In this document: positions 15,927 to 19,412 of the stretch, one piece after another
Numbering within the stretch: the stretch's first letter is position 1
Layout: each line of letters begins with the position of its first letter
DNA from: an uncultured Roseovarius sp.
GTDB taxonomy: Bacteria; Pseudomonadota; Alphaproteobacteria; Rhodobacterales; Rhodobacteraceae
Assembly: GCA_937884705.1 (NCBI GenBank)
Contig: CAKZYL010000381.1
Coordinates: forward strand, 1 to 33,912
DNA length: 33,912 bases
Direction of reading: 5' to 3'
The notes under the pieces: generated by a model
Told to the model about the DNA's origin: nothing
What the model saw: only the letters and a program-made list of their open reading frames with translations
Database searches by the model: none
Program-made: the position numbers and the translations under genes

Positions 15927-17495
15927 CTAGGACACATCTTTGTAGCTGATCTCACGGCGATCCGACCCACCTACCTTCTCGCGACGCACCAAAAGGCGGT
16001 TCAGCGCCACCACATAGGCTTTGGCAGAAGCCACAACCGTGTCAGTGTCTGCAGATTGGCCCGTGGCCACGTAGCCATCCTCTTCCAATCGCACGGTCAC
16101 TGTGGCCTGGGCATCCGTGCCCTCAGTTACGGCATGCACTTGATAGAGCGACAGGCGCGCAGTGTTGGGGTGCAGCGCGCGCACCGCGCGGAAGGTGGCA
16201 TCCACGGGGCCGTCGCCGGTCTCTGTGGCAGACACTTCTTGGCCGTCGATCGACATCACCAGGTCCGCCTTCGCCTTACCAGACGTGCCGCACATGACAG
16301 CCAATGACGAGATCAGGAGACGATCGTTCTCCAGATCCTCACCCGCGGTCACGAGCGCGATCAGATCTTCGTCGTAAACCTCTTTTTTGCGATCCGCGAG
16401 TTCTTTAAAGCGCACGAACACGTCGTTGAGCTGATTGTCGGCCAGTTCATAGCCCAGATCGCTGAGCTTGGAGCGCAAGGCAGCACGACCGGAATGCTTG
16501 CCCATCACGATATTGGTCTCTGTTAGGCCCACATCTTCGGGACGCATGATCTCAAAGGTCTCGGCGTTTTTGAGCATGCCATCCTGATGGATGCCAGATT
16601 CGTGTGCGAAGGCGTTTTTACCGACGATGGCTTTGTTGAACTGCACGTTGAAGCCAGACACCGTCGCGACACGCCGGCTGACATGCATGATCTTTGTTGT
16701 GTCGATATCGGTGTAATAGGGCATGATATCGCCCCGCACCTTCATCGCCATAACCACTTCTTCCAGAGCGGTGTTGCCAGCCCGTTCGCCCAATCCGTTG
16801 ATGGTGCATTCGATCTGGCGCGCGCCACCCGCCACAGCGGCCAGTGCATTGGCCGTCGCCATGCCGAGATCGTTGTGACAGTGAGTGGCAAATACCACCT
16901 CATCAGCGCCCGGCACCTCTGCGATCAGGCGCGCAATGAGATCAGCGCTTTCGACCGGGGCCGTGTATCCCACCGTGTCTGGGATGTTGATCGTGGAGGC
17001 CCCGGCTTTGATCGCGATGTCGACCACGCGGGCCAGGTAATCCCATTCCGTGCGGGTGGCATCCATGGGTGACCATTGCACGTTGTCGCAAAGGTTGCGC
17101 GCATGGGTGACCGTTTCGTGAATGCGATCGGCCATTTCGTCTTTGGTCAGGTTAGGGATGGCCCGATGCAGGGGGGACGTGCCGATGAAAGTGTGAATGC
17201 GCGGGCGTTTGGCGTGCTGTACCGCCTCCCAGCAGCGATCAATGTCTTTGATATTGGCGCGGGCAAGCCCGCAGATGATGGCGGTCTCGGCGCGCTTTGA
17301 GATCTCGCTCACAGCCTGAAAATCGCCCTCGGATGCAATGGGGAATCCCGCCTCAATGATGTCCACGCCCATCTCATCCAAGAGCCCCGCGATCTCGAGC
17401 TTTTCATTGTGGGTCATGGTGGCGCCGGGGCTTTGTTCGCCGTCGCGCAGAGTGGTGTCAAAAATGACGACTCTGTCTTTGTCGGAATTGGTCAT
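15927..17495 (-). CDS. leuA: 2-isopropylmalate synthase
   Basis: 522 aa; VIFDTTLRDGEQSPGATM, HCHNDLGMATANALAAV, INGLGERAGNTALEEVVMA, HESGIHQDGMLK, C-terminal regulatory domain. Confidence 0.97.
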   Translation of the reverse strand: MTNSDKDRVVIFDTTLRDGEQSPGATMTHNEKLEIAGLLDEMGVDIIEAGFPIASEGDFQAVSEISKRAETAIICGLARANIKDIDRCWEAVQHAKRPRIHTFIGTSPLHRAIPNLTKDEMADRIHETVTHARNLCDNVQWSPMDATRTEWDYLARVVDIAIKAGASTINIPDTVGYTAPVESADLIARLIAEVPGADEVVFATHCHNDLGMATANALAAVAGGARQIECTINGLGERAGNTALEEVVMAMKVRGDIMPYYTDIDTTKIMHVSRRVATVSGFNVQFNKAIVGKNAFAHESGIHQDGMLKNAETFEIMRPEDVGLTETNIVMGKHSGRAALRSKLSDLGYELADNQLNDVFVRFKELADRKKEVYDEDLIALVTAGEDLENDRLLISSLAVMCGTSGKAKADLVMSIDGQEVSATETGDGPVDATFRAVRALHPNTARLSLYQVHAVTEGTDAQATVTVRLEEDGYVATGQSADTDTVVASAKAYVVALNRLLVRREKVGGSDRREISYKDVS

Positions 17496-17516
17496 GGGGG
17501 ATCTCTTTTCAAATGT

Positions 17517-17589
17517 CCTAAGCTGGCGGCGCGGGTCTCATCCTCTGAGCGGTCGCGCCGGATCAGGGCACGCTCAGAGGCGGCTTAGG
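17517..17589 (-). promoter_or_regulatory. Putative attenuator RNA region upstream of leuA
   Basis: Perfect 10-bp inverted repeat (17571-17580 with 17542-17551), competing 7-bp stem (17554-17560 with 17527-17533), outer 7-bp CCTAAGC/GCTTAGG (17583-17589 with 17517-17523). No U-tract is visible after the candidate terminator stem. Confidence 0.68.
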
Positions 17590-17639
17590 AGCAGCAGGAG
17601 AGAAAGACAAGCGAATGGCCTGCCTTTGATGGGTGTCAT
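17574..17639 (-). CDS. Putative leucine leader peptide (leuL-like) of leuA, MTPIKGRPFACLSLLLLLSRL*
   Basis: Read directly: ATG ACA CCC ATC AAA GGC AGG CCA TTC GCT TGT CTT TCT CTC CTG CTG CTC CTA AGC CGC CTC TGA; 7 of the last 10 sense codons are Leu; AGGA just upstream; about 80 nt before the leuA ATG on the same strand; followed by inverted repeats. Confidence 0.82.
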   Translation of the reverse strand: MTPIKGRPFACLSLLLLLSRL

Positions 17640-17753
17640 ATGATCCTGCGAAGTCATTGGTGCACTATAGGCTGAGCTTGTGCATTTGCCTAGATGTGTT
17701 GCGCGAGAAAGCGGGAGCGCTCGTCGCTTCCTTTCGGGCGCGCCTCGCTTGTG

Positions 17754-19412
17754 TCAGATGCTGTCGCGGAACCGGTTTACGATTGGATAGCGACGATCCA
17801 GCCAGAAGGCGCGTTTGGACAGCCGCGTGCCGGGCGCGGACTGGAAACGCTTGTATTCTGCAATGTAGATGAGGTGTTCGACGCGATTGGCATCCTCGCG
17901 CGTGTATCCCGCGTTGATGCAGTCTTCGATTGAACCATCCTGATCAATCAGAATGTCTAGGATCCCGTCCAAAACAGGGTAATCGGGAAGAGAATCGCTG
18001 TCTTTCTGGTCGGGCTTGAGCTCTGCCGAGGGCGGTTTTTCAATCACACGTACCGGGATCACCTCACCCGAAGGCCCCATCATCCAAGGTCTGTGGTTTT
18101 CGTTGCGCCAGCGGCAGATCTCAAAAACTCGGGTTTTATAGAGGTCTTTGATCGGGTTATAGCCCCCCGACATATCGCCGTAGATCGTCGCATAACCCAC
18201 CGCGACCTCGGATTTGTTGCCCGTGGTCAGCAACATCTCTCCGAATTTATTGCTGAGCGCCATCAAAAGCAGCCCACGCAGCCGCGATTGCAGGTTTTCT
18301 TCGGTGATGTCGGGCTCTCTGCCTTCAAAAAGCGGCGCCAGAGTGTTGGTCACCGCGTCGCGGCCTTCTTTGATCGGCACGTAATCGTATCGCGCGCCCA
18401 AGTTCTCAGCGACCGCTTTCGCGTCCTCCAGTGATGATTGCGATGTGTACTCGGATGGCAGCATCACACAGCGGACATTTTCGGGTCCCAAGGCATCGGC
18501 GGCGATCGTGGCCACGATGGCACTGTCGATCCCGCCCGAGAGGCCCAACAGGACCTGAGAGAAACCAGTCTTTCGCAAATAGTCCCTGAGCGAAAGCACC
18601 ATGGCACGGTAGTCCAGCTCATAGGCGTCGGGAATCGAGGCCAACGCTCCTTTGACTGCACGCCAGCCGCCCGGGCCGCGCACAAGATCAAGCTGTGTGA
18701 TCGCCTCTTCCATAACCGGCATTTGCAGCGCCAGCTCTCCACCGGGGTTGAGCACAAAGGTGCCGCCATCAAACATCTGATCATCCTGGCCGCCCACCAG
18801 ATTGAGGTAGATGAGCGGCAGACCGGTTTCGACCACGCGGGCGACCATCAGGTTCTGGCGCTCCTCCAACTTGTTTCGGTAGTAAGGCGATCCATTGGGC
18901 ACCAGCAAAAACTCCGCGCCCGTCTCTGCCAAGGTCTCTGACACCTCCATATGCCAGGCATCTTCGCAAATCGGGCTGCCCACGCGCACACCGTCCACCA
19001 CGTAAGGCCCGCCCAATGGCCCTGCATCGTAGACCCGCACTTCGTCAAAGACGGTTTCATTGGGCAACTCGTGTTTGAGCACGCAGGTTTGGATCTGTCC
19101 TTTTTTAAGAATGTAGTACCCATTGTGCAGCGCACCATCCACAACAGCTGGGCCCCCGATGGCCAAGGCCGGACCGTCGGCACAGTCCTTGGCCAGTGCC
19201 TCTATCGCCCGGATCGCGGCATTGTGAAAGGCGGGCTTCACCACCAGATCCTGGGTGTTGTAGCCCGTGATGAACATCTCCGGCAGCGCCACCAGCTGCG
19301 CCCCAGCCGCGCGTCCCTCCTCCCAAGCGGAGCGGGCCAAGGCCGCGTTGCCAGCAATGTCTCCAACGGTCGCATTGAGTTGCGCCAAAGTGATGCGGAA
19401 ACGGTCTGTCAT
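17754..19412 (-). CDS. nadE: Glutamine-dependent NAD+ synthetase
   Basis: 552 aa; N-terminal nitrilase-like glutaminase domain (VALPEMFITGYNTQDLV, GSPICEDAWH), C-terminal LLGLSGGIDSAIVATIAADALG and TTGNKSEVAVGYATIYGDMSGGYNPIKDLYKT. Confidence 0.96.
   Translation of the reverse strand: MTDRFRITLAQLNATVGDIAGNAALARSAWEEGRAAGAQLVALPEMFITGYNTQDLVVKPAFHNAAIRAIEALAKDCADGPALAIGGPAVVDGALHNGYYILKKGQIQTCVLKHELPNETVFDEVRVYDAGPLGGPYVVDGVRVGSPICEDAWHMEVSETLAETGAEFLLVPNGSPYYRNKLEERQNLMVARVVETGLPLIYLNLVGGQDDQMFDGGTFVLNPGGELALQMPVMEEAITQLDLVRGPGGWRAVKGALASIPDAYELDYRAMVLSLRDYLRKTGFSQVLLGLSGGIDSAIVATIAADALGPENVRCVMLPSEYTSQSSLEDAKAVAENLGARYDYVPIKEGRDAVTNTLAPLFEGREPDITEENLQSRLRGLLLMALSNKFGEMLLTTGNKSEVAVGYATIYGDMSGGYNPIKDLYKTRVFEICRWRNENHRPWMMGPSGEVIPVRVIEKPPSAELKPDQKDSDSLPDYPVLDGILDILIDQDGSIEDCINAGYTREDANRVEHLIYIAEYKRFQSAPGTRLSKRAFWLDRRYPIVNRFRDSI

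Follow-up and report, generated by a model that had tools for sequence, protein, structure and literature searches.

A conserved leucine-codon leader RNA upstream of leuA in Alphaproteobacteria, probably a ribosome-operated leucine switch without a terminator

The stretch of DNA analysed here, which we call the window, comprises 33,912 nucleotides of a contig from an uncultured Roseovarius sp. and carries on its minus strand leuA, the gene for 2-isopropylmalate synthase, preceded by a short leucine-rich ORF and by a series of complementary RNA segments (Table 1). The initial annotation drew this ORF from 17639 to 17574 on the minus strand, and it was recovered exactly there. In that version it encodes MTPIKGRPFACLSLLLLLSRL*, and Leu accounts for 7 of its final 10 codons (CTT, CTC, CTG, CTG, CTC, CTA and CTC). 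At least six Leu residues in the last 10 codons were found in a single one of the 274 ATG ORFs of 12-60 aa in the window, the leader ORF itself, and in none of the 13,204 ATG ORFs of the same size range from 60 simulated first-order Markov windows. The Leu-rich leader and the three helices upstream of leuA are real and far from chance.

The start at 17639 is, however, probably 18 nt too far downstream. The leader very probably begins at the in-frame ATG 17657, because this codon lies 6 nt after a -10 box, the spacing in relatives is similar and the N-termini align from there (MTxxxHI in the relatives, MTSQDHM in the window). The box was the sole sigma-70-like site detected in that region by a scan in which 0.0 were expected, and in 83 of 109 relatives the distance from the end of a -10 box (TATAGT, TATAAC and similar) to the leader ATG is 5-9 nt, most often 7 nt. 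Since only six bases separate the box from ATG 17657, the leader mRNA would be leaderless, with transcription starting at or near the leader AUG. A CTTTTCATT-like -35 box is common to the relatives; at that spacing the window has TAGGCA instead. Of 83 Rhodobacteraceae leaders, 57 carry a CATATC-like word about 15 nt after the start of the ORF, and the window has CATATG at 17642-17637 (minus strand), inside its leader ORF. In three relatives (L017, L019 and L111) CATATC is out of frame (+17) and yet kept, so that the word is probably a nucleotide-level signal, and a reading of MTxxxHI as an N-terminal peptide motif is disfavoured. At 17714-17756, just upstream of the leader promoter, is a CGAGGCGCGCCCGAAAGGAAGCGACGAGCGC-like repeat, about 35 nt long and dispersed, of which the same genome holds 26 further partial copies.

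Table 1. Features of the leuA leader region in the window, in the order of transcription.
Feature	Position	Strand	Remarks
Candidate -35 hexamer TAGGCA, weak	17687..17692	minus	17-nt spacer to the -10 box; 9/12 matches
-10 box TATAGT, leader promoter	17664..17669	minus	followed by six bases, then ATG 17657
leuA leader peptide ORF, 27 aa, MTSQDHMTPIKGRPFACLSLLLLLSRL*	17574..17657	minus	probably translated from a leaderless 5' end
Segment A, TCCTAAGC	17583..17590	minus	last Leu codons and a Ser codon; 5' strand of the base stem
Segment B, CCTCTGAGCG	17571..17580	minus	holds the stop codon (17576-17574)
Segment D, GTGCC	17567..17571	minus	pairs with GGCGC of D', lengthening hairpin B:C
Segment D', CGGCGCG	17554..17560	minus	partner of either D (inside hairpin B:C) or E
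Segment C, CGCTCAGAGG	17542..17551	minus	partner of B
Segment E, CGCGCCG	17527..17533	minus	partner of D' (GC stem); family-level feature only
Segment A', GCTTAGGA	17516..17523	minus	SD-like; partner of the Leu codons in A; ends 20 nt before the leuA AUG
Proximal weak SD region of leuA, AAAAGAGAT	17501..17509	minus	
leuA, 2-isopropylmalate synthase	15927..17495	minus	gene proposed to be regulated; TIGR00973, 647.5 bits, over cut-off

As initially annotated, segments B and C form a perfect helix of 10 bp with the leader stop codon inside B, and the GC stem, 7 bp between D' and E, holds C in its loop. The two arrangements computed for this RNA, hairpin B:C lengthened by D:D' and the GC stem, exclude each other, and both are kept in Rhodobacteraceae. 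The outer pair that had been regarded as an oddity of the locus is present, but it joins A to A' over 8 bp rather than 7 and is a central part of the element, because it shows covariation with synonymous Leu codons and its counterpart in other families engages the leuA SD. The folding energy of the region is unremarkable on its own (z -1.8), and the case therefore rests on conservation and covariation.

A short ORF with a Leu-rich tail (typically LLLLxRL*) and with its stop codon in the same hairpin was located at 109 Rhodobacteraceae leuA loci, usually about 80 nt before leuA. Comparison of these upstream regions bore out the conservation of the Leu run and showed that A:A', B:C and D:D' covary: in an alignment of 80 sequences their joint covariation score was 0.142 versus 0.090 in shuffled alignments (0/500), and slid controls gave 0.046-0.062. 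For D':E, 4 pairs were changed on both sides versus 1.5 expected (0/500), and other covariation measures were not clearly above the shuffles; the covariation support for this stem within the family appears moderate. The claim of a conserved GC stem holds to this extent in Rhodobacteraceae but not outside the family, where a locus's own segments paired no better than foreign ones, a null result which means that the own-versus-foreign test is capable of failing. Class-wide, B:C was 98.1% paired, with 57 double-changed cells versus 8.6 in shuffles, in an alignment that had been fitted to the structure of the model and is thus somewhat biased in its favour; the stop codon (TGA, TAG or TAA) in B and its partner in C change together across the class.

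The codon at position -4 from the stop is CTA or CTT in 106 of the 109 Rhodobacteraceae loci, and CTA goes with U in A' and CTT with A in 46 of the 48 loci that can be scored at both positions, with switches that amount to about three parallel events on the LeuA tree. CTA makes up 24% of the Leu codons in the leader tails versus 0.9% in leuA genes, and an enrichment of rare codons is what is expected of a sensor of tRNA charging, although at codon -4 the third base is constrained by its pairing with A' as well. In some distant members the last ten codons include no more than 2-3 for Leu, and a strong A:A' helix was found in only 65 of 95 Rhodobacteraceae loci in which the element precedes leuA directly. 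Outside Rhodobacteraceae a frequent tail reads CTT CGA CTT ANN NGC CCC TGA (LRLxRP*, as in L137, L156 and L160), and the Arg codon CGA stands at -5 in 44 of 82 loci.

Model R1 of the element matched in 187 of 199 Rhodobacteraceae genera, with one match per genome save one genome with two; the genome of the window has one, and no credible second copy was found in it. The two strong matches of the exceptional genome (G080:C38:730-809 and G080:C225:2042-2124) represent a second copy or a contaminant. With the class-level model R2 (E<=0.01) the element was found in 86 of 395 Alphaproteobacteria genomes, and at each of the 82 distinct loci examined from families other than Rhodobacteraceae it is directly upstream of leuA, on the strand of that gene. 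In a sample of the phylum, 37 of 37 matches fell inside Alphaproteobacteria, although the proportion of the sample outside the class is unspecified and absence elsewhere is not implied. At seven Rhodobacteraceae loci (L009, L021, L046, L049, L106, L109 and L116, with a possible remnant in L045) the leuA operon opens with a cupin-like gene, and there the element precedes the cupin gene, that is, it stays with the first gene.

We then considered what the base stem meets at its 3' side. In other alphaproteobacterial families, a locus's own Leu-codon segment gives better pairing with the 5' region of leuA than segments taken from foreign loci (p 9e-6). Of the 35 strong helices of this kind outside Rhodobacteraceae, 28 contain GGA or AGG, mostly at SD distance; examples are the 10-bp helix AGTCGAAGGA of L137 and the 8-bp helix CGAAGGAC of L156. 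In the cupin-first operons of Rhodobacteraceae, A' is the SD of the cupin gene. In direct-leuA Rhodobacteraceae, the window included, A' ends at a median of 19 nt before the AUG (IQR 17-21), and the base stem of the window reaches an SD-like AGGA upstream of the weaker proximal SD, not the proximal SD itself. At 20 nt from the AUG, A' is too far away to serve as the ordinary SD of leuA in the window.

Accessibility was estimated by partition-function folding, in which the stalled state was represented by removing the Leu codons and the released state by keeping them. From released to stalled, the unpaired probability of the SD rose from 0.31 to 0.53 across the class and from 0.17 to 0.58 in cupin-first operons, and that of A' in direct-leuA Rhodobacteraceae from 0.25 to 0.57; shuffling A had an effect similar to that of removing the Leu codons. 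The folding predicts, for other families and for cupin-first operons, an SD that is buried unless a ribosome occupies the Leu codons. The proximal SD of direct-leuA Rhodobacteraceae, in contrast, is about equally open in all states (0.65 vs 0.68), and in the window the link from A' to initiation is the weakest step of the model, for which a second SD, a standby site or a steric block are candidate routes. A' is likewise predicted to be free with a ribosome parked at the leader stop codon, and repression would therefore need release of the ribosome.

Taken as a whole, this arrangement of leader, codons and helices is probably a leucine switch of the leuA mRNA that works in cis, is operated by the ribosome and acts most likely at translation initiation, that is, by translational attenuation. 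The transcript would start on or close to the leader AUG. With ample leucyl-tRNA, the ribosome would clear the Leu run and depart at the stop codon in arm B; the Leu codons of A, now free, would then bind the SD-like A', the base stem so formed would close the B:C hairpin, and initiation would be hindered. When leucyl-tRNA is short, the ribosome would stall on the rare Leu codons and cover A; B:C would still form, A' would stay single-stranded and the downstream gene would be translated. The Leu codons would act as the sensor and also as the strand that masks the initiation region. The ORF, the helices and their covariation, the bias towards rare Leu codons, the missing U-tract and the pairing of Leu codons with the SD in relatives are read from the sequences; we infer the stalling on uncharged leucyl-tRNA, the direction of the regulation and its translational output. 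A leucine shortage that stalls the ribosome would probably turn leucine synthesis on. D':E may possibly serve as an alternative hairpin or form an H-type pseudoknot with B:C. A class-wide pseudoknot through D':E or through pairing of the loop with downstream sequence was considered and rejected, as own loops pair no better than foreign ones.

The initial annotation had read the locus as classical attenuation, while remarking that no U-tract follows the GC stem and that the end mechanism could be Rho-dependent or translational. The U-tract is indeed missing in the window and in Rhodobacteraceae: a T-run of at least six between the hairpin and the gene is present at 1 of the 109 family loci and absent from the other 108, class-wide such runs occur in three AT-rich genomes only, and a terminator scan of the window found no terminator-like site on the minus strand. 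U-tracts being essentially absent, intrinsic termination is excluded as a general mechanism. The Rfam Leu leader had no match at the gathering score in the window and 13 related loci, nothing was found in the leader region by Rfam at E<=10, and the element is missing from Rfam 15. With a GC stem confined to Rhodobacteraceae in addition, classical transcription attenuation is not supported for this element. An intrinsic terminator made from D':E, for which the mutual exclusion with D:D' and the paired changes in Rhodobacteraceae could be adduced, is in our judgement extremely improbable in view of the absent U-runs and of the loss of D':E outside the family. The alternatives raised for the end mechanism were the right ones, and Rho-dependent transcription attenuation is the main rival for the window. 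According to it, release of the ribosome under leucine-replete conditions exposes the RNA to Rho or leaves the RNA polymerase paused, unless a stalled ribosome or the B:C hairpin stands in the way. We consider such an output unlikely, though with a weight that it owes to the position of A' about 20 nt upstream of the AUG and to the open, weak proximal SD. The lack of an intrinsic terminator and a moderately C-rich leader transcript (55 C and 39 G of 162 nt) agree with it, and Rho-dependent attenuation has been suggested for some terminator-less actinobacterial leaders (PMC1262725). However, the transcript has no obvious C-rich, G-poor rut stretch, and the covariation of A:A' and its overlap with the SD in other families would be superfluous for a Rho mechanism; the narrow spacing of A' to the AUG (IQR 17-21 nt) also argues against Rho, as weak evidence.

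Alternatively, the conserved tail (LLLxRL* here, LRLxRP* elsewhere) could stall the ribosome at the stop codon as a nascent arrest peptide that senses free leucine, and a Pro codon before the stop, found in 75 of the 82 non-Rhodobacteraceae loci, is known from other arrest peptides such as TnaC. The last residues, however, vary (SRS, SLR, SLI, LPLP), and arm C changes with them in a compensatory manner, so that it is the RNA pairing that is kept and not the peptide sequence; conservation of the tail at the peptide level is disfavoured, and we regard peptide arrest as highly doubtful. Somewhat less doubtful, but still improbable, is a protein- or ligand-binding RNA that overlaps the leader ORF by happenstance. 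The primary sequence of hairpin B:C/D:D' is highly conserved, as such a site would have it, and protein binding has been proposed for the actinobacterial LEU elements (PMC1262725), but the strong enrichment of rare Leu codons and the conserved spacing of promoter and start argue that translation of the leader matters.

The proposed leucine switch shares features with several known systems. In the erm/cat type of translational attenuation, stalling of a ribosome within the leader ORF makes an SD further downstream accessible; the signal there is an antibiotic, whereas for the leuA element uncharged leucyl-tRNA is proposed, and the control codons themselves would be the anti-SD strand. The Leu leader of gammaproteobacterial leu operons (Rfam Leu_leader) has in common with it a leader peptide with Leu codons, rare Leu codons among them, and mutually exclusive helices. 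It has a terminator, however, while the alphaproteobacterial element is devoid of a U-tract terminator and of an Rfam match, has the leader stop codon in the core helix and has a base stem to an SD-like sequence. The trpL attenuator of S. meliloti (PMC7298713, PMC10117765) is likewise a leader ORF from Alphaproteobacteria, with an mRNA that starts directly at the start codon, but it works by transcription attenuation and releases the sRNA rnTrpL, whereas the leuA leader has no terminator. The uORFC-8-2 motif upstream of cysS in Rhodobacterales (PMC8632094) is also an order-wide uORF with control codons in a helix and with predicted ribosome-mediated attenuation, although with Cys codons, another gene and a different structure; the text examined makes no mention of leucine or isopropylmalate synthase. 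In the open literature searched, the alphaproteobacterial leuA element is undescribed, and an earlier description is possible, a 2004 comparative study of proteobacterial attenuation being outside the scope of that search.

The closest likeness is to the actinobacterial LEU element (Seliverstov et al., 2005; PMC1262725), which also lies upstream of leuA and has a leader peptide with a run of Leu codons, a base stem between Leu codons and SD, alternative internal structures and no terminator. The element described here appears architecturally like it, a likeness drawn from its published description. Base-stem pairing of Leu codons with the SD, as in LEU, recurs at numerous loci in other families and in the cupin-first operons, whereas the stem of the window misses the proximal SD. 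LEU also belongs to a different phylum, and a pseudoknot is central in the published account (PMC1262725), while B:C is the class-wide core here and an H-type pseudoknot of B:C with D':E is possible on paper only, in Rhodobacteraceae. For the similar leader of S. coelicolor leuA, mutations were reported to be inconsistent with classical attenuation (cited in PMC1262725), which we count against the proposed switch. We give about even credence to the broader reading, that this is an ancient switch of the whole class in which the Leu codons of a leaderless uORF are the anti-Shine-Dalgarno strand, with sensor and actuator in one segment and without a terminator, and that it may be the same solution as actinobacterial LEU, by descent or by convergence. 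If so, leucine synthesis across much of Alphaproteobacteria, including roseobacters and many uncultured and AT-rich lineages, would be under one overlooked, terminator-free RNA element, and the base stem between Leu codons and SD would be a directly testable mechanism in common with the unexplained LEU element of actinobacteria.
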